NCBI GenBank assembly: GCA_025355165.1
Contig: JANYAD010000064.1
Coordinates: 1-32,999, forward strand
Reading direction: 5' to 3'
DNA length: 32,999 nt
From: Gammaproteobacteria bacterium
Lineage (GTDB): Bacteria; Pseudomonadota; Gammaproteobacteria; Steroidobacterales; Steroidobacteraceae
Position numbers and translations under genes: made by a program. A model generated the notes under the pieces. It saw nothing but the letters and a program-made list of their open reading frames with translations. It was not told the DNA's origin and did not search any database. Below are positions 13,908 through 30,796 of the stretch, in pieces. Position 1 is the stretch's first letter. Every line of letters begins with the position of its first letter.

Positions 13908-15581
13908 ATGGCTCAGTTCATTTACACCATGAACCGGGTTGGCAAGGTCGTGCCGCCCAAGCGCATCATTTTGCGCGATATCAGCCTGAGTTTTTTCCCC
14001 GGCGCGAAAATCGGCGTGCTGGGACTGAACGGGTCCGGCAAATCCACCTTGCTGAAAATCATGTCCGGCCTCGACAAGGACATCGAAGGCGAGGCTCGTG
14101 CCCAATCGGGCATCAAGGTCGGCTACTTGCCGCAAGAACCTGCGCTGGATGAAACCAGAACGGTGCGAGAGGTCGTTGGCGAAGGGGTAAGCGAGGTGCA
14201 AAGCCTGTTAGATCGCTTCAATGCGATCAGCGACAAATTCGCCGAACCCCTGTCGGACGATGAAATGAACAAGCTCATGGAAGAGCAGGCCAAGATGCAG
14301 GACAAAATCGATGCGGTGGGCGGCTGGGAACTGGAGCGAAAGCTCGAAATCGCCGCCGATTCGCTGCGCCTACCGCCGTGGGATGCGCTGGTCGGAAAGC
14401 TTTCCGGCGGCGAGAAGCGCCGCGTCGCTTTGTGCAGGCTGCTGTTATCCAAGCCCGACATGTTGCTGCTCGACGAGCCCACCAACCACTTGGATGCGGA
14501 ATCGGTAGCCTGGCTCGAGCACTTCTTGGAGGAATATCCGAGCACGGTGATCGCCGTCACGCACGATCGCTACTTCCTCGACAATGTAGCCGAATGGATC
14601 CTGGAGCTGGATCGCGGCCATGGGATCCCGTGGCAGGGCAACTACTCGTCGTGGCTGGAACAGAAGGGCCAGCGGCTGGCACAGGAGGAGCGCCAGCAAG
14701 ATGCGCTGGCTAAAACCCTCAAGCGCGAGTTGGAATGGGTGCGCACCAACCCAAAAGCCCGCCAGGCCAAATCCAAGGCTCGCTTGCAGCGATATGAGGA
14801 ATTAGCCTCTCAAGACTTTCAAAAACGCAACGAGACCAACGAAATCTATATCCCGCCGGGAGATCGTCTCGGCGATCTGGTGATCGAATGCAAGAACTTG
14901 AGGAAGGGCTACGACGATCGGCTGCTGATCGACTCCTTGAGCTTCAATCTACCCCCCGGGGGGATCGTGGGCATCATTGGACCCAACGGTGCCGGGAAAA
15001 CCACGCTGTTCCGCATGCTCTCAGGGATCGAAAAGCCGGACAGCGGCGAAATTCGCCTGGGCCCGAGCGTCAAGCTCGCCTATGTAGATCAATCGCGGCA
15101 AGCGCTGAATGATAAAAACACGGTTTGGCAAGAGATTTCCGGCGGGCTGGATCTTATCAAGGTCGGCAACTATGAGACCTCATCACGCGGTTATGTGGGC
15201 CGCTTTAATTTTAAAGGGGTACAACAGGGACAAAACATCGGCGAGCTGTCCGGGGGCGAGCGCAACCGGGTTCACCTCGCAAAGGTATTGAAGGCGGGCG
15301 GCAACGTCTTATTGCTCGACGAGCCGACCAACGATCTGGATATCGAGACGCTGCGCGCTCTGGAAGATGCGCTGGTGGCGTTCCCGGGCTGCGCGGTGGT
15401 CATTTCCCACGATCGCTGGTTCCTCGATCGGATCGCGACCCATATATTGGCATTCGAAGGCGACTCGCAAGTCGTGTGGTTCGAGGGTAACTACCAGGAA
15501 TACGTCGATGACTACAAAAAACGCAAAGGGGAAGATGCCAATCAGCCCCACCGGATTCGTTACAAACCACTCTCGGGCTAA
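13908..15581 (+). CDS. ettA: Energy-dependent translational throttle protein EttA (ABC-F)
   Basis: 557 residues, matching EttA. Two ABC domains without membrane segments: Walker [10 protein letters not shown] (39-47), signature [12 protein letters not shown] (about 165) and Walker [12 protein letters not shown]; then Walker [10 protein letters not shown] (about 359), signature [12 protein letters not shown] (about 446) and Walker [12 protein letters not shown]. Between them is the charged P-site tRNA-interaction linker (about 240-300, [21 protein letters not shown]). Family members bind the ribosomal E site and gate the first elongation cycles according to ADP/ATP ratio. The start [13 protein letters not shown] is typical. 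A DUF4145-like gene follows 3 bases after the stop. Confidence 0.96.
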
Positions 15582-15584
15582 TCT

Positions 15585-16292
15585 ATGAGCATTTACATCA
15601 CGCCCCAAGACGAGCTGCATGTCGAATACCACGGCATTGCCCTGACTTGCCCGCATTGCCAGACCCTTACACATTTGACGCCGGTCGCGGTGCCAAAATT
15701 CGAAGATCTCAGCCGCCGCAAGCCCAAGCACGTCGGGATCGTGTTTCGCTGCGATACATGCGCGGAGCCGATTTTCCTCAAGTTCCTCACCAAGGCGTAC
15801 ACCGCTTTGCGCGTGGAACTCGCTGCCAGTTATATGGAGATCGAGCGGGCGCGAGAGAGTTTTCCTTTGACCTACTTGCCCGAAGAAGCCGAAGGCTTGT
15901 TCAAAGAGGCCCTCAATTGCTATTCCGCCGCGTGCTACAACGCGTTCGGCTCGATGAGCCGGCGCACCGCGCAGTCCTTGTTTCGCGAGCTGGGCGAGCG
16001 CGGCAAACTGGAGCTTTTCGATACCCTGCAGGAGATCCGCTCGCTGGCGGACCTCGACGATGACACCTTTGCGACCCTGCGGGCCCTGCTTTTCGGCAGC
16101 GACAGCGACCCGTGGCCCAATCAGCCCAACTTGGATTCAGAGCAAGCGGGCATACTACTGGAAGTTATGCGCGACCTGCTCTATCAGACGTTTGTGCGCA
16201 AAGCGCGACTGGTACAGGCGATGACCTTTCGCAGGTTCGTCGCCCCCAACCAAACTGAGCCGGTGTTCATGCCGCCAACCGCAGTACGCTGA
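15585..16292 (+). CDS. Zinc-ribbon protein with DUF4145-like domain
   Basis: 235 residues. Cys22-x2-Cys25 (TCPHC) and Cys56-x2-Cys59 (RCDTC) look like a treble-clef or zinc-ribbon site. The middle part, about 95-160 (PEEAEGLFKEALNCYSAACYNAFGSMSRRTAQSLFREL), resembles DUF4145 helical regions, a domain often found in restriction or other nucleic-acid-associated proteins and as stand-alone hypotheticals. The residues after Cys59 (IFLKFLTKAY) suggest a beta hairpin. It starts 3 bases after ettA, so the two are probably co-transcribed, hinting at a translation- or stress-related role; that is inference. It converges with purL, leaving about 30 bases with no visible terminator. Confidence 0.8.
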   Translation: MSIYITPQDELHVEYHGIALTCPHCQTLTHLTPVAVPKFEDLSRRKPKHVGIVFRCDTCAEPIFLKFLTKAYTALRVELAASYMEIERARESFPLTYLPEEAEGLFKEALNCYSAACYNAFGSMSRRTAQSLFRELGERGKLELFDTLQEIRSLADLDDDTFATLRALLFGSDSDPWPNQPNLDSEQAGILLEVMRDLLYQTFVRKARLVQAMTFRRFVAPNQTEPVFMPPTAVR

Positions 16293-16322: not shown

Positions 16323-19300
16323 TTACGCGACGAATACCCGAGCGTTGCGGAACAATCGCATCCAGCCGCCGTCGTGCGACCAGTCTTTTGAAACCCAGGA
16401 GTTTTGCACGCTGCGAAATACGCGCTCCGGGTGCGGCATGACGGCCGTGACGCGCCCATCGACGCTGCACAGCCCCGCGAGACCCAGCGCCGAACCGTTG
16501 GGATTGAATGGATATCTCTCGGTAGGCCGATCTCGATTGTCCGCGTATTGAAGGGTCGCGATACCTTGGGCCAGCAACGTGTCCGGACCCGATCCGGCAT
16601 CGAATTCTGCTTTGCCCTCGCCGTGCGACACGGCAATGGGCAGCACCGAGCCGTGCATGCCGCGGAACAGTACAGACGTGGATTTCGGAATATGCACCAG
16701 CGACAACCGCGCTTCGAATTGTTCCGACGTGTTGCGCACGAACCGCGGCCATGCGGACGCGCCAGGGATCAATTCTTTCAGTGCGGCGAGCATCTGGCAG
16801 CCGTTGCATACCCCCAAAGTAAACGTCGCCTCGCGAGCAAAGAACGCGGCGAACTCCTGACGCGCCCGCTCGTTAAAAAGAATGGACTTTGCCCATCCCT
16901 CGCCGGCACCCAAAACATCGCCGTAGGAAAAGCCGCCGCACACCACCAGGCCGTGGAATCTGCCCAAGGCCACCCGGCCCGCCAAGATATCGGTCATATG
17001 GACATCGTATGCATCGAAACCCGCCCGTGTGAACACCGCTGCCATTTCAACGTGGCTGTTGACTCCTTGTTCCCGCAACACCGCGATCGCCGGCCGTGCC
17101 CCGGTGACGATGAAGGGTGCGGCCACATCGGCATCCGGATCGTAGCTCAAGCTCGCGTGCAGTCCGGGATCGGAGGCATCCTCGAGCCGCGAATATTCCT
17201 CGCGCGCACAATTCGGATTATCGCGCAGCTGCTGCATTCGAAACGACACCTCGCTCCAGCGCCTATGTAAAGCGATGCGTGAGGCTGAATAGATTACCGC
17301 GCCGTTTGCGTTTACCTGCACCTCGGAGCCTGGCGTAGGCTCGCCAATGTCGCGGATCATCTCTTTGAGTCCATGCTGGTCAAATATGCTGCGCACTTGC
17401 GCCAGTTGTTTCAGTGATACTTGGATCACCGCGCCCAACTCTTCTGAAAAGCAGGCGGCGATCGTATCGGTGACTGCACCTAAGTCGATTTGCAGTCCGC
17501 AATGTGCGGCAAATGCCATTTCCAGAACCGTCACCATCACACCGCCGTCCGATCGGTCATGGTAGGCAAGTAGCAGGCCCTGATCTTTCAGCTCGCGCAG
17601 CGCGGCAAAAAATCCTCCCAGCACTTCGGGCCTGTCCAGATCCGGTGGGTTGCCGCCGCTTTGCATCTGCACCTGCGCCCAGCAAGAACCTCCCAGGCGA
17701 TTCTGACCCGCACCTAAATCAACGAGCAACAGACGTGAGGGCTGCGACAAAACAAGCTCGGGCGTCAGCGTCTTGCGCGCATCCTCGACGGGCGCAAATG
17801 CCGTGACAATCAGCGAAACGGGAGCGAGCACGGTACGCTCGCCGCGCGCATCGCGCCACGTAGTCTTCATCGACAAGGAGTCCTTTCCCACCGGAATGGT
17901 GATGCCAAGCGAGGTGCACAATTCGCTCACGGCGCGCACAGTGGCATACAAATCGGCATCTTGCCCGGGCTCACCGCACGCGGCCATCCAGTTTGCCGAT
18001 AAGCGAACGTCGCTCAAGCGACGCACGTCCGCTGCCAAGATGTTGGTGAAGGCCTCCGCGACAGCCAGCCTTCCCGATGCCGGCGGATCCAACAGCGCCA
18101 CTGGAGCACGTTCCCCCATCGCCATCGCTTCGCCGCTATATTCATCGTAGCTGCTCAAAGACACAGCAACGTCCGCGACGGGCACCTGCCAAGGGCCAAC
18201 CATTTGATCGCGGCTGATCAAGCCGCCGACGGTGCGATCGCCAATGGTGATCAAGAACGACTTATCCGCAATGGTCGGCAGAGACAGCAGGCGATCCAGA
18301 GATTCCCCCACACTCGCCGTACCGGTGGTCACGGAGCGCTGGCGCTTGGGTAGGGATCGCACATCGCGCATAGTGCGCGGCACCTTGCCTAACAGCACCT
18401 GAAGGGGCATATCGACCGGTACGTCCTTAAGCAGCGGATCGAAAACCTCGAGCAATCCGTCGCCGGTAATCTCGCCCACCACGGCGTATGGGCAGCGTTC
18501 GCGTTCGCAAAGCGCGGCAAACTGATCGACGCTCCCCGGCACCAGAGCCAGCACGTAACGCTCCTGCGCCTCCGTGCACCAGATCTCCAGCGGCGAGAGC
18601 TCCGATTCGGCGCTGGGTATCTTGCGCAAATCAATGCGCCCGCCGCGTGCGCTATGCGCGATAGCCTCCGGCAACGCATTCGACAATCCGCCCGCACCCA
18701 CATCATGAATCAATAGAATCGGGTTGGCCTCGCCGAGCGCGACGCAGCGATCGATGACCTCTTGCGCGCGCCGCTGCATCTCGGGATTGCCGCGTTGTAC
18801 CGATGCAAAGTCCAAATCGGATGAGCTTTCGCCGCTGCCTAGAGAGGAGGCAGCGCCGCCGCCTAATCCGATCAGCATCGAGGGGCCGCCGAGCACTATG
18901 AGCGGCGCGCCCAAGACGACATCTTTTTTCTCTACGTTTTGGCGGCGCACATTACCGACGCCGCCGGCAACCATGATGGGTTTGTGGTAGCCGCGAGCCA
19001 GCGCGCGGCCCGCATCTTCACTCACTTGCTCGAACACTCGGAAATAGCCGCAGACAGCCGGACGTCCAAATTCATTGTTAAAGGCGGCAGCCCCCAGCGG
19101 CGCAGCGATCATGATGTCGAGCGCGGAGGCAATTCGGTCCGGTTTGCCGAAATGCTCTTCCCAAGGCTGCAACATGCCCGGGATCCTCAAGTTGGATACC
19201 GAAAAGCCGGTCAATCCAGCCTTGGGCTTGGCGCCTATCCCGGTGGCGCCCTCATCTCGAATTTCGCCCCCCGACCCAGTGGCGGCACCGGGAAATGGCG

Positions 19301-20237
19301 AAATAGCGGTGGGATGATTGTGAGTCTCGACCTTCATCAAGATATCGATCGATTCCGTGCTACCGCCATAGCGCCGCGTCAGGGGATCGGCGAAGAAACG
19401 AGTGGCGCTCGCGCCTTCGATAACAGCCGCATTATCCCGATACGCCGACAATACGCCCTGAGGATTGCGTGCATAAGTTGCGCGAATCATGTCGAATAGC
19501 GACAGCGGCATCGGCTCGCCATCGACGATGAACTTGGCATTGAATATTTTATGGCGGCAATGCTCGGAATTGGCTTGCGCGAACATCATCAGTTCGACAT
19601 CGGTTGGATCTCTGTCCAAGTTAGCGAATGCCTGCACCAAGTAATCAATTTCATCGGCCGATAAAGCCAGTCCCCATTCTTGGTTAGCCCGCGCCAACGC
19701 TTGATGACCGTCAGCGCCCAGGTCGACACGGCGCAGGCCTCGCGGTGGCGCGGCGTGAAACAGACCAACGGGCTCAACCGTATTGAGCCAGACGGATTCG
19801 ATCATGCGATCATGCATGTGCGCTGCGAGCTTTTTCAGATCCGCACTGTCGAGTGCAACTTCGGACTCGACTGAATAGAGGGTGCCGCGCTCGACGCGCG
19901 TCACAGCATTCAACCCGCACACATGCACGATGTCGGTGGCCTTACTGGACCAGGGTGATTCTGTTCCCAAGCGCGGCGTGACTAATATGCGCTGGCCCTC
20001 GCTGCCGGCACCCATGTGGCCGCCATCGCGGTGGCCGCACGGCGATTCGCGGGTGCCGTACGTTAGCAGCTTTCCCAACACCTGAAGTTCAGGTTCACCC
20101 AGCGCGCGGGAGACATCTAGGAAATGAACCCAGCGGGTTGACACGCCAAGGATCCGCGGCTCTTCCGTCTTCAGTGCTCGCAGCAGCTGATCGAGACGAA
20201 ATTTCGACAGCGCCGGTGCGCCGAAAAGGCTAAACAT
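16323..20237 (-). CDS. purL: Phosphoribosylformylglycinamidine synthase, single-chain
   Basis: 1304 residues, the long gammaproteobacterial form (FGAR amidotransferase). An N-terminal PurS-like region (1 to about 150) is followed by a linker and the synthetase core: [42 protein letters not shown] (about 285-315) and [15 protein letters not shown]. The C-terminal class I glutaminase domain (about 1045-1304) has nucleophile Cys1144 in [10 protein letters not shown] and His1269/Glu1271 in PHPER. It makes formylglycinamidine ribonucleotide from FGAR, glutamine and ATP, step four of purine synthesis; ammonia is channelled between domains. It starts 21 bases after the DUF1820 gene ends, so the promoter at 20634 probably serves both. 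No frameshift seen. Confidence 0.97.
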
Positions 20238-20258: not shown

Positions 20259-20600
20259 CTATTTGCGGGCGCTGGAGTCTCCGCCGGGTGTGTAGATGGG
20301 CACGGGAAACTGGGCAACGTTGGAGCCTTCCAGCGCCACGATCTTGCTCACGCCCTGTTTCTTGACTTCATCGATGCGCAGCACCGAATGCATCGGCAGA
20401 TAGGTGCGCTTGACTTCGTTGAATTCGGCCTTGATCTTCTCTTCGGCAGGATCCACCACCACCGTGGAGCGCTCCCCGAACACCAATTCCTCCACCTCGA
20501 TGAAACCGAATAGGCCGCCGTGACTCACTTTGCGGGCGTAGATCTCATAGACCTTGCCCTGATTTACGAACAGAACTTTAAAAATGTGACTCGCTGCCAT
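20259..20600 (-). CDS. DUF1820 family protein
   Basis: 113 residues from ATG 20600, chosen because GGAG lies eight bases before it and the family begins with HIFKVLFVNQGKVYEIYAR as here; an upstream in-frame start at 20633 adds 11 hydrophobic residues and is unlikely. The body GLFGFIEVEELVFGERSTVVVDP, EEKIKAEFNEVKRTYLPMHSVLRIDEV is the conserved DUF1820 pattern, a small cytosolic beta-rich protein common in Gammaproteobacteria, of unknown function. It is followed 21 bases later by purL on the same strand and is divergent from the tagH-like gene. Confidence 0.88.
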   Translation of the reverse strand: MAASHIFKVLFVNQGKVYEIYARKVSHGGLFGFIEVEELVFGERSTVVVDPAEEKIKAEFNEVKRTYLPMHSVLRIDEVKKQGVSKIVALEGSNVAQFPVPIYTPGGDSSARK

Positions 20601-20633
20601 AGTGTAGGCTCCAACCATTGCTAGCATTACCAT

Positions 20634-20683: not shown

Positions 20684-22039
20684 ATGGCCCTGCGCTTACG
20701 CGTCGTCAGTGAACACTCAACCCGCCTCGGAGGACTTGCAACGAAAGTCTTCGGTGTCCATGGAGGCACCATCGGTCGCGCCACTGACAATGAGTGGATT
20801 CTACCCGACCCGGAGCGATACCTCTCGGGCAAACACATTCGCATTGATTTTCGGGCCGGCCACTACATTTTGGTCGATACCAGTTCCAATGGTACCTATG
20901 TCAACGGCGCGCAAGTTCCCTTGGGCAAGTACCACGACTACCCGCTCCAGGATGGGGATTACGTACGGCTGGGCGAGTACGAGCTTCTGGTCAGCATCGA
21001 CAAAAGCAACGACTTCCCGCCCGAGGAAAGCGCCATTGTCGCCTATGACGGGCAATCGCCTTCCTCCGCCGCCAAGAAATCCACCGCGGATGATTTGGGC
21101 GCCGACCTTGACTTAAGTCAGCTGCTGGAACCAAGCAATTTGCTCGCCGGCGATGCGGGCGGCCCCCGAGATGCGTATGGACAACCGCTGCCCACGCTGG
21201 CTCGGCCGGCCGCGGCCGCAGAAGCAGCCGCGACGCCCTGGCACATGATGACGCGGCCGTTGAAGGTCGACGCGCCCAAATCAAAAGCCGCGCCCGCGCC
21301 GGCGCCGGCGCCGGTGAGTGACAACGCGCCGGGTGTGCCGAGCGCTCACTTGTCGCGCTCGCAGGGCCTTGCACTGTACGAAGGCGACTTCGACATCGGC
21401 CTATCCTCATTCTGCCGCGGCGCCGGAATCGATCCCAGCTCCATCAGCTCCGAGGCGCGTGGCGCCGCCCTGCAGCTGGCCGGGCAAATGCTGCGTGAAG
21501 CGGTGCTGGGATTGATGGAACTGAATCAAGCCCGCAATGAGTTTCGCAATAGGTTCAGGATCGCAGCGCCAGCTGAGGATTCTGCCGAATCGCCCTTGAA
21601 TTTCTCGCGAGGCGTCGATGAGGCTCTGGTGCGATTATTGAGCACCGTCTCGACCCGCGCGGGATCGGTTGAGGCGATCCGTGAAAATTTACGCGAGCTC
21701 AAAGCTCAGAATGCCGCGACGCTCACCGCGACACGGGCCGCCTTCGAAGAATTCTTGGGCCGTGTCGACCCTAAGGAACTCGAAGAGCGCTTCGAACGAG
21801 TGGGCAAGCGCGGCGTCTTTGGTGGCCAAAACAAAGCTAAATACTGGGACCTGTACGCCGAACTCTACTCAGGCCTCGCGCAACGCCCCGCCGATGGGTT
21901 TCCTCACTTGTTCACGGAGACTTTCGCAAAGGCATATGAGGCGAAGCTGCGCGCCTTGGTTCCGCCGCGCCGCACCGGCTTCGGCACGGACCGAGAAGAG
22001 CCAAGCAATGCCGCCAGCCACGCCATCGGCGATCCTTAA
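20684..22039 (+). CDS. tagH: TagH-like FHA-domain protein (T6SS-associated family), orphan
   Basis: 451 residues from ATG 20684, preceded by GGATGG; TTG 20678 is a longer alternative. FHA domain about 25-105: GGTIGRATDN (27-36), LPDPERYLSGKH (40-51), DTSSNGTYVNG (65-75), with Arg32, Ser48 and the asparagines that read phosphothreonine in this fold. A long Ala/Pro-rich linker (about 110-225) follows, with an APAPAPAP run. The C-terminal helical domain (about 230-435: LALYEGDFDIGLSSFCRGAGID; VFGGQNKAKYWDLYAELY; FTETFAKAYEAKL) matches the TagH/ImpI C-terminal domain. Characterised relatives bind phosphorylated partners in the threonine-phosphorylation control of type VI secretion. No other T6SS gene is in the window. 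Confidence 0.85.
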   Translation: MALRLRVVSEHSTRLGGLATKVFGVHGGTIGRATDNEWILPDPERYLSGKHIRIDFRAGHYILVDTSSNGTYVNGAQVPLGKYHDYPLQDGDYVRLGEYELLVSIDKSNDFPPEESAIVAYDGQSPSSAAKKSTADDLGADLDLSQLLEPSNLLAGDAGGPRDAYGQPLPTLARPAAAAEAAATPWHMMTRPLKVDAPKSKAAPAPAPAPVSDNAPGVPSAHLSRSQGLALYEGDFDIGLSSFCRGAGIDPSSISSEARGAALQLAGQMLREAVLGLMELNQARNEFRNRFRIAAPAEDSAESPLNFSRGVDEALVRLLSTVSTRAGSVEAIRENLRELKAQNAATLTATRAAFEEFLGRVDPKELEERFERVGKRGVFGGQNKAKYWDLYAELYSGLAQRPADGFPHLFTETFAKAYEAKLRALVPPRRTGFGTDREEPSNAASHAIGDP

Positions 22040-22075: not shown

Positions 22076-22747
22076 GTGCGGCTTTTACTAGTGGAAGATG
22101 ATGATCTCGTTGCCGATGCCATCCTGCGCGGTTTGAGCGCGGCCAATTATTCCGTGCACCGGGTCATGAGCGCAGAGGCCGCCCAGGCGGCAATCGCCAA
22201 CGAAGAGTTCGCCATGGCCGTGATCGATGTGGGACTGCCGGGCGCCGACGGCTTGACGCTGGTACGTCGGCTGCGCAGTGCCGGCAAATCCCTTCCGACG
22301 CTCATTCTCACGGCGCGGTGCACCCTCTCCGATAAGGTCAAAGCGCTCGACCTCGGAGCCGATGATTTTCTCAGCAAACCATTCGAGGCGGCCGAGCTCG
22401 CGGCGCGATGCCGCGCGCTCATGCGCCGCTCCCACGGCGCAGCCAGCGGCATGGTCAAACTCAATCGAATCAGCGTCGACCTTGCGGGTAAACGCCTGTG
22501 CATAGATGAGGCGGAGGTCGAGCTCACCGCCCGCGAATGGCTGGTGCTCGAGTGCCTGGCACGGCGCATTGGGCAAATCGTCCCCAAGGAGCGTGTGCAG
22601 CAGGCCGTCGCGGGCCCTGACCAAGACATCACGGCCAACGCCGTGGAAGTGCACATCTCGCGGCTGCGCGCCAAGCTTGGCGATGCGGCCATTATCCGCA
22701 GCCTGCGGGGACTTGGCTATCGCCTGGAAGAGGCGAAAGCCGCGTGA
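22076..22747 (+). CDS. OmpR/TctD-type response regulator
   Basis: 223 residues from GTG 22076. The receiver domain (1 to about 115) has the acidic pair in LLLVEDDD, phosphoacceptor Asp51 in AVIDVGLPGADG, Thr79 in LILTARC and Lys101 in DDFLSKPFEAAEL. The C-terminal winged helix (about 125-220) ends with the recognition region ITANAVEVHISRLRAKLGDA and wing RSLRGLGYRLEE. It is a DNA-binding regulator activated by phosphorylation. Its partner kinase begins inside the stop codon (GTGA overlap). Closest in architecture to TctD/QseB-like regulators. The minor pilin operon starts about 1.4 kb downstream on the same strand and is a candidate target; this is inference. Confidence 0.93.
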   Translation: MRLLLVEDDDLVADAILRGLSAANYSVHRVMSAEAAQAAIANEEFAMAVIDVGLPGADGLTLVRRLRSAGKSLPTLILTARCTLSDKVKALDLGADDFLSKPFEAAELAARCRALMRRSHGAASGMVKLNRISVDLAGKRLCIDEAEVELTAREWLVLECLARRIGQIVPKERVQQAVAGPDQDITANAVEVHISRLRAKLGDAAIIRSLRGLGYRLEEAKAA

Positions 22748-24096
22748 CCTCCTCCATCAGCCGCCAGTTGATCTTGTGGCTGGCAATCCCACTCATGCTG
22801 GTGGCGGTATGCGGCGCCCTGATTCATTACTTGAATAACGTAGCGCCAGTGGTAATCAGCAGCGACCGGCGCTTGAAGGACGCGGCGAATTCATTGATGG
22901 CCCATGTGGTCGTCAAGCAAGGCCAAATCGCGCTGGATCCTTACATCCAGCCATTTTTGCCGCACGCCGATTCGATCAGGTATGCACTGCGCGATGCCCA
23001 GGGCCGCCTGCTGGCGGGTGACCCACAACTGCCGATCGTGGCCATGGGCGGTGAGGGGACACAGCTGCTGGCGATGGCGCTGCTCGATGGCCGCAACGTT
23101 CGCACTCTAACCACGCGCTTCGACTCACCCCGCGGACCCATCACCATGACGGTGGCTGATGTCAGGGCAACCACCGAACCGGAGGCGCGGTTCGGCCTGA
23201 TGAGTACGCTGCTGTGGGACTTTGTGCAGCTCGATATCACGTTGGTGCTGGTCTGGGTCGGCATTCAGTTGGGGTTGCGGCCGATCAAACGGTTGCGCGA
23301 TGAAATCGCTCGGCGCTCGCCGCTCGATCTGCGGCCCATCGTGGAAACTTCCGGGCCGCGCGAAATTGCGCCGGTAGTGGTAACGCTCAATCGCTTATTT
23401 GGAATGCTGCGCACATCAGTGCAGTCGCAGCAACAGTTCATCGCCGATACCGCGCATCAGTTGCGCACACCGATCACCGGAATGCAGGCACAACTCGACC
23501 TCCTCATCGCAGAACCCGCGGCGCAGCCTATCAGGACCCGACTACTCACCTTACAGGAAGGCGTGAAACAGCTTGCGCACTCGGCTAATCAGCTGCTGAC
23601 ACTGGCGCGTGCCGATCCTTCGGCCAACATCAGCGCCAGGAATCAAAGCGTGGATTTGCAGACCATCGTCAATGAGGTCGCCGCTAAATTCTTCGATCGC
23701 GCCTTGCAATCGAATATCGACTTAGGAGTCGACGCGACCCCAGTTGCGATACGCGCCGATGCGTCGCTGCTGGACGATTTGATGAGCAATCTGGTGGACA
23801 ATGCGCTCAAGTACACTCTTGCCGGGGGCAGCGTCACGGCCATGGCCGGAGAAAAGAATGGCAGGCCATACCTCGCGGTGGTTGACACCGGATCCGGCAT
23901 TCCCGAAGCCGAGCGCCATCGCGTGCGTCAGCGATTTTACCGAATGCCGAACTCGCCCGGACACGGCAGCGGACTGGGTCTGGCGATCGTGGACGAGATC
24001 GCGCGCTTATACGATTGCTCGATGAGCATCGAGGCGGGGCCGCATGGAATTGGCACCCGCGTGTCGATCCAGTTTCCACCGCGATCCGTGAACTAG
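22744..24096 (+). CDS. TctE-like sensor histidine kinase
   Basis: 450 residues from GTG 22744, overlapping the regulator stop by 4 bases. Two membrane helices (about 8-30 and 155-178) flank a periplasmic sensor of about 125 residues whose features (VVISSDRRLKDAANSLMAHV; DPYIQPFLPHADSIRYAL; GPITMTVADV) fit the 2CSK_N domain of TctE/QseC-like kinases. A HAMP-like linker is followed by the H box with His238 in FIADTAHQLRTPITGMQ. N box LMSNLVDNALKYT, G1 DTGSGIPEAERHRV, F box RQRFYR and G2 GSGLGLAIVDEIARLY are intact. It should autophosphorylate and pass phosphate to Asp51 of the upstream regulator. Relatives sense organic acids, but the ligand here is unknown. Confidence 0.93.
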   Translation: MTSSISRQLILWLAIPLMLVAVCGALIHYLNNVAPVVISSDRRLKDAANSLMAHVVVKQGQIALDPYIQPFLPHADSIRYALRDAQGRLLAGDPQLPIVAMGGEGTQLLAMALLDGRNVRTLTTRFDSPRGPITMTVADVRATTEPEARFGLMSTLLWDFVQLDITLVLVWVGIQLGLRPIKRLRDEIARRSPLDLRPIVETSGPREIAPVVVTLNRLFGMLRTSVQSQQQFIADTAHQLRTPITGMQAQLDLLIAEPAAQPIRTRLLTLQEGVKQLAHSANQLLTLARADPSANISARNQSVDLQTIVNEVAAKFFDRALQSNIDLGVDATPVAIRADASLLDDLMSNLVDNALKYTLAGGSVTAMAGEKNGRPYLAVVDTGSGIPEAERHRVRQRFYRMPNSPGHGSGLGLAIVDEIARLYDCSMSIEAGPHGIGTRVSIQFPPRSVN

Positions 24097-24166: not shown

Positions 24167-24718
24167 ATGAAACTTCCCGCACCCGGCTTTACGTTGATCG
24201 AACTCATGGTGGCCATCACCGTCGCCGGAATTTTGGCCGCCATTGCGGTACCTTCCTTCAGAAGTTTTTTGCTGAACGATCGCGACGCCGGTCAAGTCAA
24301 TTCGCTGGTTGGCAGCTTTAGCTACGCACGCAGCGAGGCTGTGAAACGCGCGTCCTCCAACGGTATTACGGTATGTCCCTCGCCAAATGGGCTGGTTTGC
24401 GGCGCGACGCCATGGAGCGGCGGCTGGATCGTGACTTACATCGACCCGCTCAACGCCGGGAATAACGTGGTGCTGCAGGCGGTGCCGGCGCTGGGGGGGA
24501 CAAACACCGTGACACCCGTGGCCGGCCCTGCCGGCGGTATAACGTTCTTGTCGAGCGGACTCACCTCCGCACCTGCACCGGGATTGACGATTCGCATCTG
24601 TGATGTACGCGGAGCGGCTTTCGCGCGCCAAGTCGAAGTCCTTTCCACCGGCCGCGTCGCGGCGTCGCAAAGAGCTGGATTCGCCGTCGACGGCGTCACG
24701 GCGCTGGCGTGCCCCTAA
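24167..24718 (+). CDS. fimT: Type IV pilus minor pilin, FimT/GspH family
   Basis: 183 residues. Short prepilin leader MKLPAPG cut before FTLIELMVAITVAGILAAIA, with Phe+1 and Glu+5 for PilD processing and a 20-odd residue hydrophobic helix that anchors the subunit in the inner membrane. The globular part includes FSYARSEAVKRASSNGITVCPSPNG, typical of GspH/FimT pseudopilins, and four cysteines that could pair. First gene of the minor pilin operon, in the place of fimU/fimT in Pseudomonas. In that system the minor pilins form the priming complex at the pilus tip with PilY1. No clear ribosome-binding site precedes the ATG. Confidence 0.9.
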   Translation: MKLPAPGFTLIELMVAITVAGILAAIAVPSFRSFLLNDRDAGQVNSLVGSFSYARSEAVKRASSNGITVCPSPNGLVCGATPWSGGWIVTYIDPLNAGNNVVLQAVPALGGTNTVTPVAGPAGGITFLSSGLTSAPAPGLTIRICDVRGAAFARQVEVLSTGRVAASQRAGFAVDGVTALACP

Positions 24719-24738
24719 CCATGTGCGGCGAAAATATC

Positions 24739-25287
24739 ATGAATACCATTGATCGCAGCACGCCCTGCAGCCGCTCTGGCGCTCGCGGATTCACGCTGGT
24801 GGAGGTTCTGGTTTCGTTGGTGATCTTGAGCATTGGCCTCTTGGGCATTGCCAAGCTCATGCTGCTGTCATCCCATTCGAACGACAGCGCCTATCTGCGC
24901 AGTCAAGCGACGGACTTGGCCTATGAAATGCTCGATTACATGCGGGCCAACAGCGTGCAGGCCAATATTGCCCTCGGACCCTATAACACAGCGTTGGGCG
25001 CCGGTCCGGTCGATCCCGGCTTTACCTGCATTGCCGCAGCTCCCTGCGCCAATCTAGCTTTGTACGATGTGTATCAATGGAAGCTTCGTTTAAATGCGAC
25101 CAGCGGACTGGTGCCCGCGGGCGCGCTGCCGAATGGCCAGGGGTCCGTGGCCACCGTCGTCGCGGGGGGGCAAACCACGGCTACCATCATCGTGAGCTGG
25201 GATGACTCAGTGGCCGAGAAGAGTCTGAATGTGGGCGCAGCGGCGGCCGCCAACACGCAATCGATCACGCTGGAGACAGTCCTATGA
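24739..25287 (+). CDS. pilV: Type IV pilus modification protein PilV
   Basis: 182 residues from ATG 24739; in-frame starts at 24721 (ATG) and 24709 (GTG, overlapping fimT) are possible because no ribosome-binding site is decisive. Prepilin cut after GARG, before FTLVEVLVSLVILSIGLLGIAKL, the PilV-type hydrophobic helix. DSAYLRSQATDLAYEMLDYMRAN is the conserved PilV segment. Family members are minor pilins needed for pilus priming. The TGA overlaps the pilW ATG (ATGA), so translation is coupled. A long mature domain with two nearby cysteines (FTCIAAAPCA) follows. Confidence 0.9.
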   Translation: MNTIDRSTPCSRSGARGFTLVEVLVSLVILSIGLLGIAKLMLLSSHSNDSAYLRSQATDLAYEMLDYMRANSVQANIALGPYNTALGAGPVDPGFTCIAAAPCANLALYDVYQWKLRLNATSGLVPAGALPNGQGSVATVVAGGQTTATIIVSWDDSVAEKSLNVGAAAAANTQSITLETVL

Positions 25288-26369
25288 GTCGGCAGCGCGG
25301 CTTCTCGCTGGTGGAGTTGATGATCGCGATCACGCTCGCGCTGATCGTCACGACCGGCGTGATCTCGGTGTTCATCGGATCGCGCTCTGCTTATAACGCC
25401 ACCTCCGGCACGGCTGAACTGACGGATGGCGGCCGCTTTGCGCTCAATTTCATTTCAAACTCCGTTCGCGGCGCCGGTTACATGGCCTGCACCACCGCGC
25501 CGATGTTGCAGGGAACGCTGAACGCCGGTCCTACGCCCTTGACCACGGCATTTACCTTTGGACTCGGCGGGTTTGAGGCGGTGAATACCGGCAACGGCAA
25601 TGCCTATAACATTGCCCCTTCTACCCCGTTGCCAGTGGCCGCCGATGGCAACAACGGCGATTGGGTGGGCGGCCTTGATAATGCATTGAACGCTCTGCCG
25701 GTCAAGAACAACGACGTTTTGGTCGTACGTTCGACATTGGGTAACGCGCAGCCCGCCTATGTCTCCGTCATCAACGCTGGGTCGAGTCAATTTACCATCA
25801 ATGCGCCGCCGGCCTCGCTTGCCAGCGGGCAACTCGCCGTCTTATCGGACTGCTCGAAAGGCGTGATATTTCAAATCAGCAACGTCGGGCCCGGCGCCAA
25901 TCCGATCGTCACGCACAACGGCGGCGGCGGTCCCCCGGGCAATGCAACCTCCGTGTTTCAGCCGGCCTTCGCGCCCGGCGCCGTGGTGATGCCCGTGGAC
26001 GTGATGGCGTACTACATCGGCGTTGGTGCTGATGGAGATGGCGCGCTGTTTGTCTACAGTTCGAACGCCACAGGCGTTTACGCCTCAACCGAATTGGTAC
26101 CCGATATCGAAGCGATGCAAGTTCTATACGGTGTGGATACCAACCTGACGCAAACAGTGGGTAAGTACGTTACCGCCGATCAGGTTGGAAATTTCAACTT
26201 GGTAATGAGCGTGAAAGTTGCGCTGCTGGCGGCCAGTGCACCGGGGGCCGGGCGCCCATCCATAGCGGCGACCTATAACCTGCTCGGCACTACCGTGACG
26301 CCGCCGGTCGACTCACGGTCGCGCCAAGTGTTCGAAGAAACCATTGCCGTGCGCAATTCGCTGCATTAA
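25284..26369 (+). CDS. pilW: Type IV pilus assembly protein PilW
   Basis: 361 residues. Prepilin leader MSRQRG before FSLVELMIAITLALIVTTGVISVF; GGAGA lies about eight bases upstream of the ATG. SAYNATSGTAELTDGGRFALNFISNSVRGAGYMAC is the PilW hallmark following the helix. The large Gly/Asn-rich globular region is typical of this largest minor pilin, which with PilV, PilX and PilE forms the tip complex under PilY1. It overlaps pilV by 4 bases and is 11 bases from pilX. Cys69 (YMACTT) and a later Cys (SDCSKG) are disulfide candidates. Confidence 0.92.
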   Translation: MSRQRGFSLVELMIAITLALIVTTGVISVFIGSRSAYNATSGTAELTDGGRFALNFISNSVRGAGYMACTTAPMLQGTLNAGPTPLTTAFTFGLGGFEAVNTGNGNAYNIAPSTPLPVAADGNNGDWVGGLDNALNALPVKNNDVLVVRSTLGNAQPAYVSVINAGSSQFTINAPPASLASGQLAVLSDCSKGVIFQISNVGPGANPIVTHNGGGGPPGNATSVFQPAFAPGAVVMPVDVMAYYIGVGADGDGALFVYSSNATGVYASTELVPDIEAMQVLYGVDTNLTQTVGKYVTADQVGNFNLVMSVKVALLAASAPGAGRPSIAATYNLLGTTVTPPVDSRSRQVFEETIAVRNSLH

Positions 26370-26380
26370 AGGCCCCCCTC

Positions 26381-26920
26381 ATGCGCAACCATTCTTATCC
26401 TCTCGGCGCCTCCTGCAAGCAAAGCGGGGTCGTCATGTTCATCGCCTTGATCCTGCTATTGATATTGAGCCTGCTGGGCGTCACCGCGGCACGCATGCAA
26501 ACGGTTGAAGAGCGCATGGCGCGCAACGACAACAATCGGCAGCTTGGCGCGCAGGCCGCGGAAGCCGCATTGCGCGCCGCCGAGGTGGGAATCCTCACTG
26601 GACTCTATGTGAATTTTGCCGGCAACACCAATGGGCTGTATGCGCCGCTGCTATCCGCCGGAAGTCCGTTGACAGGGATGAACTGGGCTGCGCCGGCAGC
26701 GACGCTTCCCTACGCAGGTCCTGCCCTTAACAATCTACCCGCTCCATCCCAGGCACCCAAGGCGGTCATCGAAACCATGCCCCCCGTGGCGGTTGCGGGC
26801 GATGACATTTCGGTTACGGGTTTGAACAGCCCCACTCCTGTCAGCGTTTTTCGAGTGACTACACAAGGCGTCGGTGCCGACAATTCATCGACGACCATGC
26901 TCCAGACGATTGTCCGTTAG
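26381..26920 (+). CDS. pilX: Type IV pilus assembly protein PilX
   Basis: 179 residues, ATG preceded by AAAGG. The N-terminus KQSGVVMFIALILLLILSLLGVTAARM is a PilX-type helix with an atypical processing site (Gly then Val, no Glu at +5), which is normal for PilX. TVEERMARNDNNRQLGAQAAEAALRAAE is the conserved following block, with the Asn-rich turn and alanine-rich helix. PilX is a minor pilin that links the tip complex to PilY1 in characterised systems. It is followed 23 bases later by pilY1 and is part of one transcription unit. Confidence 0.9.
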   Translation: MRNHSYPLGASCKQSGVVMFIALILLLILSLLGVTAARMQTVEERMARNDNNRQLGAQAAEAALRAAEVGILTGLYVNFAGNTNGLYAPLLSAGSPLTGMNWAAPAATLPYAGPALNNLPAPSQAPKAVIETMPPVAVAGDDISVTGLNSPTPVSVFRVTTQGVGADNSSTTMLQTIVR

Positions 26921-26943
26921 GCCAAGGTAGCAAGGATTTATTT

Positions 26944-29900
26944 ATGCAAAGACTGATATCAAGGACTACGCAACAGCGATGCGCGCACATGCTGGCATCT
27001 GGGTGCTACACATTACTCGTGTGCTGGTCCTCCAACGTGATGGCGGCACCGGCTGCGCCGATCTCCATATCGCAAATCCCGCTGACGGTAACGATCCCCG
27101 CCCATCCTCAGATCCTGCTGGCGTTGGGAAACTCTGAATCGATGGATGGCGATTTAAGCGGCGCCATCCGCACCGGTTCCGGATCCATTCCGCACCCCCT
27201 GCTCTTTCCCACATCCTCGCCGCGCAATTTCACCATTCCTGCAGGGTTCACGCCGCCGCTCAACCCGGGCGCGGCAGGTCAGGCCCCCTACACGGTCGAC
27301 ATCGGCGGCGGAACTCTCGCCGATAACTCTGCCAGCCGCTTGAACGTCGCTAAAGCGGGTCTTACGGCCGTACTCAATGCCTATATCGACAGCGCGGATT
27401 TCGCGCTCGTCGATTACAACGTGGGTGGATTGACCGAATCACCGACCTACGTCTATCAAATGAGCCCACCGGGGGGGTTCGTCTTTACCAACGCGCCAGT
27501 GGGTGAATACATTCTCAACCCTTGCTACCACATTAATATCTTCGGTTTCTTCGCGGTGGAACAGAATTGCTCGCAGCTGGCTGGTTTTTATCCCACCCAA
27601 AGCATCACCACGAAGCAGTACATACTCGTGAGCGCGAGCAGCGATGACCCCGCTGTGAATGACGTCTTTTATGACGTTTTCCATTCCGGATACAGCCCGG
27701 TTTGCACGACCTACAACGGACCCAACCCCGCCCCCAACCCGTTCCCGCCGCAGTACTCACTGGGGGACTATGAAAACGGCAATGTGCAAGAGGGCTATGG
27801 ATCGGCACTGAATTTCTGTCCGGGCGCCACCGGCCCGACCAATGCCGGCTTTGTGCCCTATTCGCCGGAAGTGCTTTATGAGGCGCGCGGTTGGGGCTAT
27901 TACACCTTTGGCGAGAGCGCGAACGATGGCACTACGGTTGTGCCCATGACCTCCTCGGGCGCCATCCCCGACGCCGGCAGCGTGGCTGCGGCCATCGCGC
28001 AATTTACACCCTACCTTGCGCCCGAAACGAATGACGCGGGTACGCCCGACATCAAAGCGTCCGCGACCCAGTCGCCGACCGCCGGCTTGTTGGTACAGGC
28101 ACAGAATCTTTTTTCAGGTAACCCGCCCACCACCAACGGATGCGTGACTCACCGCTACGTCGTACTCGTGACGGACGGCTTACCGACGATGGATCTCAAC
28201 CACCGCAACTGGCCGCCACTGGGCAGTACGTCTGCGGCCGGGTATGGCGTCACCGCCACCTTCAACACGCCCGGCGATGGCCACTTGTTAGCGACCAATG
28301 ACCAGGCGCTAACCGATGTGATCACTCAACTGGCCGCATTGAACAGCGGCGCTAATCCGATCCAGACCTACATCATCGGTGTGGGTGCGGGGGTCGACCC
28401 CAGCAAGAACCCGCAGGCAGCAGCGACGCTCACCGCCATGGCGGTGGCGGGCGGAACGGCGACGTACTTTCCTGCAGTCACGCCCCAGGCGGTTACGAAT
28501 GCCTTGGAAACCATCATCACCCATATTCTCGCGGTCACCGAATCGACCGCCTCTGCCGCCGTCAACACCACAGGCCTTAACGTCAATTCGGTGGTTTACC
28601 AGTCCCAATTTGTCACCTCCGATGCCTACCAAGACTGGACCGGAAACGTCCTTGCCTACCCCATCAATCCACTTACCGGCATTGTCGACACGGTGCCGGC
28701 AGACAATGTTTGGTCGGCCCAAACCCAATTGGACGCGCAGGCATCGCGGTTAATCGCGACATGGGACCCCGCACAAGGCAAGGGAATCCCCTTTGAATGG
28801 CATAACGGCAACCCCCCGAATTGGATAGCCAACAGCACCGCCCTTGGGGCAGCGCTGAAGACGTATGCGCCGGACTCGAGCGGCAGCGATGTGGTGGACT
28901 ATTTGCGGGGCTCGACCGCACTCGAACAGCGTAACGGCGGCACATTCCGCAATCGCGCGCATATTCTTGCCGATATAGTTGACAGCAATCCGGCCTACAT
29001 CGGTCCATCAAGCGAGAACATTCAATCCTCAACCTATCTGGCTTTCGAGAACACGACGGCGTTGCGGCCGCCGACTCTCTACATCGGCGGAAATGATGGC
29101 ATGCTGCATGCCTTTGACACGGGGACCGGCAATGAACGATTTGCTTATATTCCTCGGGGCTCTTACGCGAACCTCGTCAATCTAGTCTCCCCTTTCTACA
29201 ATGCGCAGCATAAGTTCTATGTAAACGGTTCGCCGCAGGCGGCCGATGTGCAATTTAGCGATATGACCTGGCATAGCGTGCTGGTTGGAACGGAGGCGCA
29301 AGGTGGCAACAGCGTTTTTGCATTGGATATCACCGACCCGGGCTCGATAAACTCCGAAGCGACCCTCGCCAACGAGGTACTGTGGGACTTCATCGATTTG
29401 GATATGGGACTGGGATTCAGCAGTCCGGCCATCGCCAATACCAATAGCGGCTGGCAGGTGTTTGTCGGCAACGGCTACAACAGCACCAACGAGAGGCCGT
29501 TTTTGTATGCACTGGACCCGCAGCTTGGCACGATGAATGCGAAGATCGATTTATGCGCAGCGGTACCCACCGCCTGTAATCTCGCCGTCGCCAATGGCCT
29601 TTCAAGCGTAATTGCGGTGAATACCAGCGGGGCAGTCACTTCATACGCCAACATCGTTTATGCCGGCGACCTGCAAGGCAATCTATGGCGGGTGGACATA
29701 TCGAATGCCAATCCGGCTATGTGGGCGGCAACGGTCATGTTCCAAGCGACCGATGGCGCAGGTAATCGGCAGCCAATAACGACCAAGCCTGTAGCCACCC
29801 TCAATCCCCGCTTCCCCCAGGTATTGGGCACTTTAGTGATGTTCGGTACCGGTCAATATTTGGGACTTCCCGACATCGCCAATGCAAAAGTGCAGTCCAT

Positions 29901-30498
29901 CTATGGGGTCTATGATCCGCCGGCCGGCTATGTTGCCGCGATCGATCGATCGAGCCTGCTGCAGCAGACCCTGGCGACCGCGATGCTTGGCACCTCCCAG
30001 GTGCGCACCATTACCGGAACTGCCCCTGTCTATCCGGCAAACAAAGGATGGTTCATGGATTTGAATCTGCTGAGTGGCGAGCGCGTGATCAACAGCCCGC
30101 GTCTCTTCACGGGCGGAGAATTGATCCTGACCACTTTCCGGCCCATCCCTCCCGCAGCGGGCGTATGTACGACTCTGGGCAGCTCTTATCTAATGGTCTT
30201 GAACTTTGCCACCGGCGGTGGTTTCACGACGCCTCGCTTCGATGCGAATGGCGATGGCCATATCAACGCCTCTGACCTGGTAATGGTGGGCGGCGTCGCC
30301 GTTACTCCTGTCGGATTGTCGCTCGGCAATGTCTATGCCTCCGGCGTCACGAATCGAACCGGCGCACTCGGCCTCGGCGGGTCGGGAGTCGCCATCGTCA
30401 CGACGACAGGACTGCCCAACGGTGGTACAAACGTCAACAGTTACGGCGTAGGTCCGCCTCCAAAAGTTCGCACAGCATGGTGGGAGATACGTCCATGA
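26944..30498 (+). CDS. pilY1: Type IV pilus tip adhesin/assembly factor PilY1
   Basis: 1184 residues with AAGGA eight bases before the ATG. Signal peptide about 1-34 (cut after VMA). The N-terminal region is von Willebrand A-like: IPAHPQILLALGNSESMDG (51-69) replaces the usual MIDAS DxSxS with GNSES, while RYVVLVTDGLPTMDLN (about 403-418) keeps the central strand. The C-terminal half is the PilC/PilY1 beta-propeller, starting TLYIGGNDGMLHAFDTGTGNE (about 712) and then FAYIPRGSYANL. A calcium-loop motif DANGDGHINASD sits at 1100-1111 near the C-terminus. Homologues sit on the pilus tip and control extension, adhesion and surface sensing. The stop overlaps the next gene (ATGA). Confidence 0.94.
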   Translation: MQRLISRTTQQRCAHMLASGCYTLLVCWSSNVMAAPAAPISISQIPLTVTIPAHPQILLALGNSESMDGDLSGAIRTGSGSIPHPLLFPTSSPRNFTIPAGFTPPLNPGAAGQAPYTVDIGGGTLADNSASRLNVAKAGLTAVLNAYIDSADFALVDYNVGGLTESPTYVYQMSPPGGFVFTNAPVGEYILNPCYHINIFGFFAVEQNCSQLAGFYPTQSITTKQYILVSASSDDPAVNDVFYDVFHSGYSPVCTTYNGPNPAPNPFPPQYSLGDYENGNVQEGYGSALNFCPGATGPTNAGFVPYSPEVLYEARGWGYYTFGESANDGTTVVPMTSSGAIPDAGSVAAAIAQFTPYLAPETNDAGTPDIKASATQSPTAGLLVQAQNLFSGNPPTTNGCVTHRYVVLVTDGLPTMDLNHRNWPPLGSTSAAGYGVTATFNTPGDGHLLATNDQALTDVITQLAALNSGANPIQTYIIGVGAGVDPSKNPQAAATLTAMAVAGGTATYFPAVTPQAVTNALETIITHILAVTESTASAAVNTTGLNVNSVVYQSQFVTSDAYQDWTGNVLAYPINPLTGIVDTVPADNVWSAQTQLDAQASRLIATWDPAQGKGIPFEWHNGNPPNWIANSTALGAALKTYAPDSSGSDVVDYLRGSTALEQRNGGTFRNRAHILADIVDSNPAYIGPSSENIQSSTYLAFENTTALRPPTLYIGGNDGMLHAFDTGTGNERFAYIPRGSYANLVNLVSPFYNAQHKFYVNGSPQAADVQFSDMTWHSVLVGTEAQGGNSVFALDITDPGSINSEATLANEVLWDFIDLDMGLGFSSPAIANTNSGWQVFVGNGYNSTNERPFLYALDPQLGTMNAKIDLCAAVPTACNLAVANGLSSVIAVNTSGAVTSYANIVYAGDLQGNLWRVDISNANPAMWAATVMFQATDGAGNRQPITTKPVATLNPRFPQVLGTLVMFGTGQYLGLPDIANAKVQSIYGVYDPPAGYVAAIDRSSLLQQTLATAMLGTSQVRTITGTAPVYPANKGWFMDLNLLSGERVINSPRLFTGGELILTTFRPIPPAAGVCTTLGSSYLMVLNFATGGGFTTPRFDANGDGHINASDLVMVGGVAVTPVGLSLGNVYASGVTNRTGALGLGGSGVAIVTTTGLPNGGTNVNSYGVGPPPKVRTAWWEIRP

Positions 30499-30788
30499 AA
30501 TCAGCAAATATGAAGTCGATGATCGGCACGCTGGCCCTCGGGCTGTTCTTGCAGCCCACGGTGGGGTGGAGTAGCCGGGCGGTCACTGCGCCCATTACCG
30601 GCACGGTAACGGCAGCGCCCTCGAACAACAGTATCGAGGTCGACCGGCGCACTTATCACGTCAAGGCAAACAGCGCCGCTGCGAAGACACTGAGCAACTT
30701 TTACGTGGGGGAAACTGTCGATATGGTACTCGACGGGCCGCCGAACGCCCCCGAGGTGACTTCAATCATGCAGCACCCTGGGTCATGA
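30495..30788 (+). CDS. Small secreted protein in the pilY2 position
   Basis: 97 residues from ATG 30495, which overlaps the pilY1 stop by 4 bases; ATG 30510 is an alternative. The hydrophobic segment MIGTLALGLFLQPTVG suggests a signal peptide. The rest is a compact, probably beta-rich domain: APITGTVTAAPSNNSIEVDR, TYHVKANSAAAKTLSNF, VGETVDMVLDGPPNAPEV. It lies exactly between pilY1 and pilE, where Pseudomonas carries pilY2, but I cannot confirm homology from sequence alone. Its alternating strands and VG..VD..LDG look like a small OB- or SH3-like fold, which is inference. Its end overlaps the pilE region. Confidence 0.75.
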   Translation: MKSANMKSMIGTLALGLFLQPTVGWSSRAVTAPITGTVTAAPSNNSIEVDRRTYHVKANSAAAKTLSNFYVGETVDMVLDGPPNAPEVTSIMQHPGS

Positions 30789-30790
30789 GG
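30787..30790 (+). promoter_or_regulatory. Ribosome-binding site that favours the inner pilE start
   Basis: GAGG is followed by six bases and ATG 30797. It lies downstream of the alternative start at 30785, so the shorter leader (MVKNG) is preferred. Confidence 0.5.
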
Positions 30791-30796
30791 CTCACC

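Follow-up and report, generated by a model that had tools for sequence, protein, structure and literature searches.

A TagH-like FHA protein free of type VI secretion at the purL locus of Steroidobacterales, and a candidate kinase partner

The TagH-like protein and its locus

The DNA analysed here, hereafter the window, is a stretch of 32,999 nucleotides of contig JANYAD010000064.1 (assembly GCA_025355165.1) from a gammaproteobacterium of the order Steroidobacterales, and the subject of this study is a gene at 20684-22039 on its forward strand, which encodes a TagH-like protein of 451 amino acids. An earlier note on this DNA had described the product as a complete protein with a forkhead-associated (FHA) domain and a TagH C-terminal domain that lies apart from any type VI secretion system (T6SS) cluster. 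The protein matches the TagH model TIGR03354 over its full length (residues 3-423 against profile positions 1-420 of 420), with 256.1 bits against a curated cut-off of 120.25. An FHA domain at residues 29-97 (20768-20974, forward strand; PF00498, E = 7.4e-15) and a T6SS_FHA_C domain at residues 245-420 (21416-21943, forward strand; PF20232, E = 1.8e-37) likewise exceed their cut-offs, and the completeness of the protein is thereby borne out. The reading frame has an ATG start and a stop at 22039; a mechanical list of open reading frames (ORFs) begins it two codons earlier, at a TTG, and it is the ATG start that agrees with the N-terminus conserved in 37 aligned rows. Residues G31, R32, S48, H51, N69 and G70 of the FHA domain are invariant in the aligned TagH rows (37/37), and all of these except G31 are predicted phosphothreonine contacts, in keeping with the role of such residues in FHA domains. 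A search of Protein Data Bank (PDB) sequences with TagH returned matches confined to the FHA part. The source genome (G000), a metagenome-assembled genome (MAG) of 4.16 Mb in 271 contigs that is 100% complete, gave a single match to the TagH protein and a single match to the TagH alignment (E ≤ 1e-25).

The linker between the two domains carries the motif WHMMTR (residues 186-191; 21239-21256, forward strand). Its pattern, W[HQA][ML]xTR, occurs in 25 of 59 TagHs encoded at purL loci and in none of 43 other TagHs, and its threonine is a candidate phosphosite of TagH.

On one side tagH is divergent from a gene for a DUF1820 protein (20259-20633, reverse strand; PF08850, E = 2.5e-40) and from a longer ORF (16323-20237, reverse strand) which, following the earlier note, we take to be purL, the gene for phosphoribosylformylglycinamidine synthase. 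On the other side an OmpR-type response regulator gene (22076-22747, forward strand; PF00072 and PF00486) begins 36 bp behind tagH and is overlapped by the gene for a sensor histidine kinase with a 2CSK_N domain (22744-24096, forward strand; PF08521, PF00512 and PF02518). There follow a gene for a fimT/GspH-type minor pilin (24167-24718, forward strand; PF12019 and PF07963) and a block at 24709-31213 on the same strand that holds pilV, pilW, pilX, pilY1, an unnamed ORF (30477-30788) and a ComP/PilE-type pilin gene (TIGR02523 for PilV; PF16074, PF14341, PF05567 and PF16732). The flanks given earlier, a DUF1820-purL pair on one side and a two-component system on the other, are confirmed. The label tctDE given to the latter finds no support: among the NCBIfam two-component models listed none reached its cut-off, the best being PmrA (201.7 against 330) and TctD (177.9 against 337).

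TagH and type VI secretion in the order

No match to TssC was found in the genome of the window. TssK was detected in none of the 23 genomes of the genus (0/23) and TssL exceeded its cut-off in none of them (0/23), TssM and the other core genes not having been searched; one genome of the genus (G101) contained a TssL stretch of 22.7 bits, below the threshold. Within the reach of these three genes the absence of a type VI cluster stands, and a full T6SS lacking a TagH of its own, of which the protein would simply be the displaced member, was sought through TssC, TssK and TssL and was not found.

The wider distribution was scored in 247 genomes of the order, each at least 90% complete. TagH exceeded the curated cut-off in 191 of them; with presence set by us at a best E ≤ 1e-20 and counted anywhere in the genome, T6SS copies included, it was found in 198, and TssC was found in 21. 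TagH occurred without TssC in 180 genomes and together with it in 18, with no association between the two (phi coefficient 0.04). These TagH-bearing, TssC-negative genomes, together with the missing TssC, TssK and TssL, speak for a T6SS-independent TagH as proposed earlier, and the TagH of the window is almost certainly free of a T6SS. The protein is named as T6SS-associated, and in this order it would be misleading to infer a T6SS from the presence of a TagH alone. The opposite of the usual case was seen in two genomes of genus g44 (G062 and G063), in which TssC is present and the best matches to the TagH profile reach only 1.3e-7 and 2.2e-8. Class-wide, 42 of 370 genomes matched the TagH profile at 1e-25; outside the order no purL/DUF1820-TagH locus was found among 30 class-wide loci fetched with flanks of about 1.5 kb, all five positives belonging to the order itself.

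The position of the gene was compared in 39 representative loci, which we picked among the TagH matches while avoiding contigs with TssC and leaving out L083 (100-base filler). TagH is divergent from (DUF1820-)purL in these loci, with purL beside TagH in 39/39 and DUF1820 in 38/39 (the exception is L059). When the 30 best-scoring TagH loci were taken by score, DUF1820 and/or purL lay within about 1.5 kb in 17, and the remaining 13 came from T6SS-bearing genomes or held the second TagH of genus g18. The purL, DUF1820 and TagH genes were all common to the 15 named relatives of the window (15/15), which are MAGs of uncultured Gammaproteobacteria or Proteobacteria, and DUF1820 itself was present in 233 of the 247 genomes of the order. 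TagH is kept at one chromosomal site through an order mostly without a T6SS. As for DUF1820, none of the papers that name it dealt with its function, judging from titles and the openings of abstracts.

The synteny of tagH, the two-component system and fimT that had been suggested as a conserved feature holds near the genus of the window and not across the order, where DUF1820-purL is the conserved neighbour. An OmpR-type regulator stands behind TagH in 14 of the 15 named relatives, the fifteenth (L044) matching the gene order of G170, a member of another genus, and a fimT match lies in the locus of 11 of the 15, two of the remainder being cut by contig ends. Among the 39 chosen representatives the regulator was found in only three, all from the genus of the window, and the arrangement was therefore rejected as a conserved feature beyond the genus. 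No order-wide operon partner was seen 3' of TagH, the downstream genes varying by genus according to a crude caller based on the longest ORF, which in several loci overlooked TagH itself. In one relative (L037:3083-13957) the pilin block behind tagH and the regulator and histidine kinase genes is inverted, with the pilE, pilY1 and fimT matches on the opposite strand, an orientation that speaks against a shared transcript in that relative.

A tree of 102 TagHs contained 15 rows labelled as T6SS TagHs, of which 10 share a contig with TssC and five a genome only. The 41 purL-locus TagHs of the family to which the window belongs form a single starred group (97) and those of other families form further groups, whereas 14 of the 15 TagHs from T6SS-bearing genomes of the order group with the TagHs of other orders (SH-aLRT 89). 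Unplaced in this tree are L021, which lies beside TssC in genome G001, and two long-branched purL-locus rows, L068 and L081. The FHA core pattern, as we defined it, is present in 59/59 purL-locus TagHs and missing from 6/15 T6SS rows and 2/25 outside rows. Against seven close orthologues, the ratio of nonsynonymous to synonymous substitution (dN/dS) was 0.05-0.10 for the FHA domain, 0.045-0.066 for the C-terminal domain and 0.09-0.12 for the linker, one comparison being saturated and dS being near saturation in these orthologue comparisons; three closer pairs concur, with dN/dS of 0.03-0.09. Judged by these ratios, purL-locus TagH is under purifying selection.

A Ser/Thr kinase with a cyclic-nucleotide-binding domain

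At 5809-7128, on the reverse strand of the window, lies a gene for a Ser/Thr kinase with a C-terminal cyclic-nucleotide-binding domain (Pkinase, E = 2.7e-50; cNMP_binding, E = 9.7e-14), which we propose as the writer of a phosphothreonine that TagH would read. The earlier note had rightly named a kinase here and had not mentioned its second domain. In the 15 kinase rows inspected the catalytic motifs VAIK, HRD, DFG and SPE are intact throughout (15/15); the cyclic-nucleotide (phosphate-binding) cassette likewise keeps its FGE...R in 15/15, with variation in the residue after R. Eukaryotic cGMP- and cAMP-dependent kinases also join a catalytic to a cyclic-nucleotide-binding domain, but their sensor domain is N-terminal, and that of the window kinase is C-terminal. 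The best PDB sequence matches of the kinase include cGMP-dependent kinases (catalytic domain), and bacterial PknB is about equally good.

With presence set by us at E ≤ 1e-70 the kinase matched 207 of the 247 genomes (231 at E ≤ 1e-20), the matches being 68-97% identical among the rows listed. TagH and the kinase were both present in 191 genomes, TagH only in 7, the kinase only in 16 and neither in 33 (phi 0.69). The DUF1820 gene was kept in 28 of the 33 genomes without TagH and kinase, and exclusion of the 14 genomes without DUF1820, in which assembly gaps are possible, left 233 genomes with counts of 188, 7, 10 and 28 in the same order (phi 0.72).

To judge the absences, 20 TagH-less loci were chosen among genomes with a listed DUF1820 position. 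TagH was found in none of the 20 loci fetched, DUF1820 in 20/20 and purL in 19/20, a few of the contigs ending less than 0.8 kb from DUF1820. Seven g25 genomes and G042, G043, G046, G047, G056, G058, G062, G066, G128 and G133 likewise showed DUF1820 without TagH, G133 offering little sequence beyond DUF1820. The absence of TagH in these genomes is mostly real and not an artefact of assembly. DUF1820 is missing too from six kinase-only genomes (G026, G086, G105, G138, G184 and G210). Five of them yielded no purL or just a fragment of it at a contig end, and the purL of G026 is truncated by the start of its contig, so that an assembly gap is the probable reason for the missing TagH in these six. 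Several of the genes that separate TagH from the kinase in the window are kept beside purL and DUF1820 in G191 and G192, where neither the kinase nor TagH was found, so that a single deletion between the two does not account for their joint absence in these genomes.

The kinase link raised in the earlier note gains from this co-distribution, on which basis we consider the kinase of the window to be probably the partner of TagH. A Pfam scan of 19 ORFs of the window, to which this search was confined, showed no PP2C phosphatase.

Type IV pili and a possible phosphothreonine pathway

The link to pili, also raised earlier, has two supports, the minor pilin operon that adjoins tagH near the genus of the window and the distribution of pilM, with presence set by us at E ≤ 1e-60. 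TagH and pilM were both present in 189 of the 247 genomes, TagH only in 9, pilM only in 20 and neither in 29 (phi 0.60); the coefficient for the kinase and pilM was 0.67, and flhA gave 0.23 with TagH and 0.19 with the kinase. Genus g20 illustrates the pattern. One member, G179, which is basal in the purL tree, carries the kinase, pilM (1e-118) and a TagH at the purL locus. In the other 12 genomes TagH and the kinase are missing and PilM is either unmatched or matched only at 4e-4 to 8e-4, flhA being kept in 11 of the 12. This pattern is not much affected by the PilM threshold.

The correlation was also assessed on a purL species tree of 122 rows, with 120 genomes scored, which was chosen to include most absences and is therefore non-random. 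On this tree TagH changed 10 times, the kinase 11, pilM 15 and flhA 26 times. In nine independent pairs differing in TagH, the kinase differed in the same direction in 4.4 and in the opposite direction in 0.0 (median p 0.125, range 0.06-0.38), and pilM in 4.9 and 0.0 (median p 0.0625), or in 2.9 and 0.0 with PilM scored at 1e-30 (p 0.25). The corresponding values were 0.2 and 0.5 for TssC. TagH tends to be missing in lineages without the kinase and, less clearly, in those without type IV pili.

These observations led us to consider a threonine-phosphorylation pathway independent of T6SS, in which the cyclic-nucleotide-binding kinase writes, TagH reads and a pilus is the output. A cyclic nucleotide would gate the kinase through its C-terminal domain, and the kinase would phosphorylate a threonine either on TagH, where the linker motif WxMxTR is the candidate, or on a pilus protein. 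That phosphothreonine would be bound by the FHA domain of TagH, after which the helical T6SS_FHA_C domain might nucleate or license the assembly or localisation of type IV pili, in the way that Fha acts on the membrane complex of the T6SS. A model for such a switch exists in Agrobacterium, where Fha activates secretion by binding the phosphothreonine that PpkA places on TssL (PMC3953482); a second precedent is Vibrio cholerae TagH, whose FHA residues are needed for a role besides T6SS regulation (PMC8993066). Drawn largely by analogy, the pathway as a whole is offered tentatively, as something possible that falls short of probable; the pilus as its output is plausible. A broader version, in which a relay from second messenger to phosphothreonine, made of a gated kinase and a TagH scaffold, controls type IV pili throughout the order, the T6SS module being re-used or perhaps originally so used, strikes us as rather unlikely. 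Were such a pathway real, the phosphothreonine switch of the T6SS would be a portable module. The order would also provide a genetically simple setting in which to ask what T6SS_FHA_C does outside a T6SS, and by what route a cyclic nucleotide might be linked in bacteria to Ser/Thr phosphorylation and to a machine of the envelope. Among titles and abstract openings we found no paper on a T6SS-free TagH, or on a kinase with a cyclic-nucleotide-binding domain in connection with FHA proteins or pili.

A number of observations weigh against the pathway with a pilus output, and those that concern the pilus favour the strongest alternative, namely that TagH and the cyclic-nucleotide-binding kinase form a T6SS-independent reader and writer acting on a target other than the pilus (envelope assembly, metabolism or transcription), the correlation with pilM reflecting lifestyle. 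The agreement between TagH and pilM is looser than that between TagH and the kinase and depends on the threshold: with PilM scored at 1e-30 the coefficients fell to 0.46 for TagH and 0.54 for the kinase, and with any match at 1e-3 to 0.37 and 0.43. Eight g25 genomes (G005-G012) scored as pilM-negative hold PilM matches of 1e-31 to 1e-40. The g42 genomes and G062 and G063 keep pilM without TagH or the kinase, and nine TagH genomes, all with DUF1820 assembled, lack pilM at the strict threshold, mostly isolated among pilM-bearing relatives. On the species tree the kinase and pilM gave a mixed result (4.4 pairs in the same direction, 2.5 in the opposite one), and the pilin operon adjoins TagH only near the genus of the window. 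The helical nature of the T6SS_FHA_C domain, for its part, comes from an AlphaFold model of such low confidence (16 sequences, pLDDT 43.3) as to be unusable. A non-pilus target also has a precedent in V. cholerae, whose TagH, beyond regulating the T6SS, represses hemolysin, the FHA residues being needed (PMC8993066). Counting for the pilus, pilM hardly ever opposes TagH on the tree, even with the looser threshold, and minor pilin genes lie directly 3' of tagH in the genus. The pilus link of the earlier note thus stands as an adjacency near the genus and an overlap with pilM, and loses ground where the threshold is relaxed; a non-pilus target we hold to be a real possibility, itself short of probable. 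The distant PilM matches of g25 may reflect either divergence of PilM or a pilus machine of another kind.

Other observations bear on the kinase and suggest a second alternative, in which TagH acts alone or with another kinase of the genome, and shared descent together with genome reduction is all that gives the window kinase a similar distribution. The kinase lies 13.6 kb from TagH in the window, with housekeeping genes in between. Where DUF1820 was assembled, 10 genomes have the kinase without TagH and 7 TagH without the kinase. At 1e-20 a kinase match was found in 198/198 TagH genomes and in 33/49 TagH-less ones, so that the association depends on the 1e-70 threshold, other kinases being counted at the looser one; in the genome of the window itself 7 kinase candidates were scored, giving at least 7 matches at 1e-20. 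Flagella show a similar lean on the tree, flhA following TagH in 3.7 pairs and opposing it in 0.4 (p 0.25). Although its direction is consistent, the association is supported by three to five independent losses, with no test reliably significant, and general streamlining is a possible cause, given the small number of losses and the similar lean of flagella. Against this alternative, the adjacent DUF1820 is retained in most genomes lacking both proteins, flagella and TssC track TagH across the 247 genomes weakly or not at all, and flhA survives in nearly all g20 genomes without TagH and kinase. We therefore regard a shared distribution without partnership as unlikely.

A third possibility, that TagH controls the divergent DUF1820-purL pair, and hence purine supply, or comes under the same control as the pair, draws on the recurrence of the divergent arrangement; as DUF1820 and purL are retained in TagH-less genomes, and as the arrangement may just mirror a stable housekeeping block, it is very improbable. 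The idea that TagH is a T6SS vestige, or a displaced T6SS component with no function of its own, which the name and domain family and the presence of TssC in 21 relatives might bring to mind, is contradicted by the missing TssC, TssL and TssK, the 180 TssC-negative genomes with TagH, the purifying selection (dN/dS about 0.05-0.10) and invariant FHA residues, and the tree, which puts the TagHs from T6SS-bearing genomes of the order in a different lineage (that of G001 being unplaced), and it is rejected as hardly credible.

The TagH of the window shares its two-domain architecture and phosphothreonine-binding residues with the Fha/TagH proteins of T6SSs (Pseudomonas aeruginosa Fha1, Agrobacterium tumefaciens Fha and V. 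cholerae TagH), but it differs from them in its purL-DUF1820 locus, in a genome without TssC, TssK and TssL, in belonging to separate lineages of the tree and in a linker motif absent from 43 others. The pathway considered above, with a Ser/Thr kinase that tracks an FHA protein, resembles the PpkA-PppA-Fha pathway; unlike in that pathway, the window kinase stands outside the TagH operon and bears a cyclic-nucleotide-binding domain, no PP2C was seen among the scanned window ORFs, and there is no T6SS target. V. cholerae TagH regulates HlyA in a role additional to that in T6SS regulation, for which the FHA phosphopeptide residues are needed (PMC8993066), but, unlike the TagH of the window, it is part of a T6SS cluster and has the T6SS to serve as well.

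A parallel arrangement occurs in genus g18, where a second TagH lies in a row of TagH, PP2C, Ser/Thr kinase and prolyl-tRNA synthetase genes in G158, G159 and G161 (L092:8559-12235 in G159; also L093 and L098); this module too recalls PpkA-PppA-Fha. G158 and G159 have no TssC, and G161 has TssC elsewhere in the genome. Because these second TagHs branch among the T6SS TagHs, the module would be a separate T6SS-free use. By listed coordinates, TagH lies 15-18 kb from pilM on one contig in six g18 genomes (G159, G161, G162, G165, G168 and G169), of which the loci of G159 and G161 were read directly; the TagH and pilM of G158 stand on separate contigs. The block pilM-pilN-pilO-secretin-aroK-aroB was read directly in G159. 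With a single arrangement from a single genus to go by, the proximity to pilus genes may be a matter of chance.

Elsewhere in the window, the counts of promoters and terminators were inside the range of shuffled sequence. An ABC-F type ATPase gene (13908-15581) precedes a gene for a conserved protein (15585-16292) without a Pfam match at 1e-4, and relatives of the latter adjoin purL in many of the loci read.

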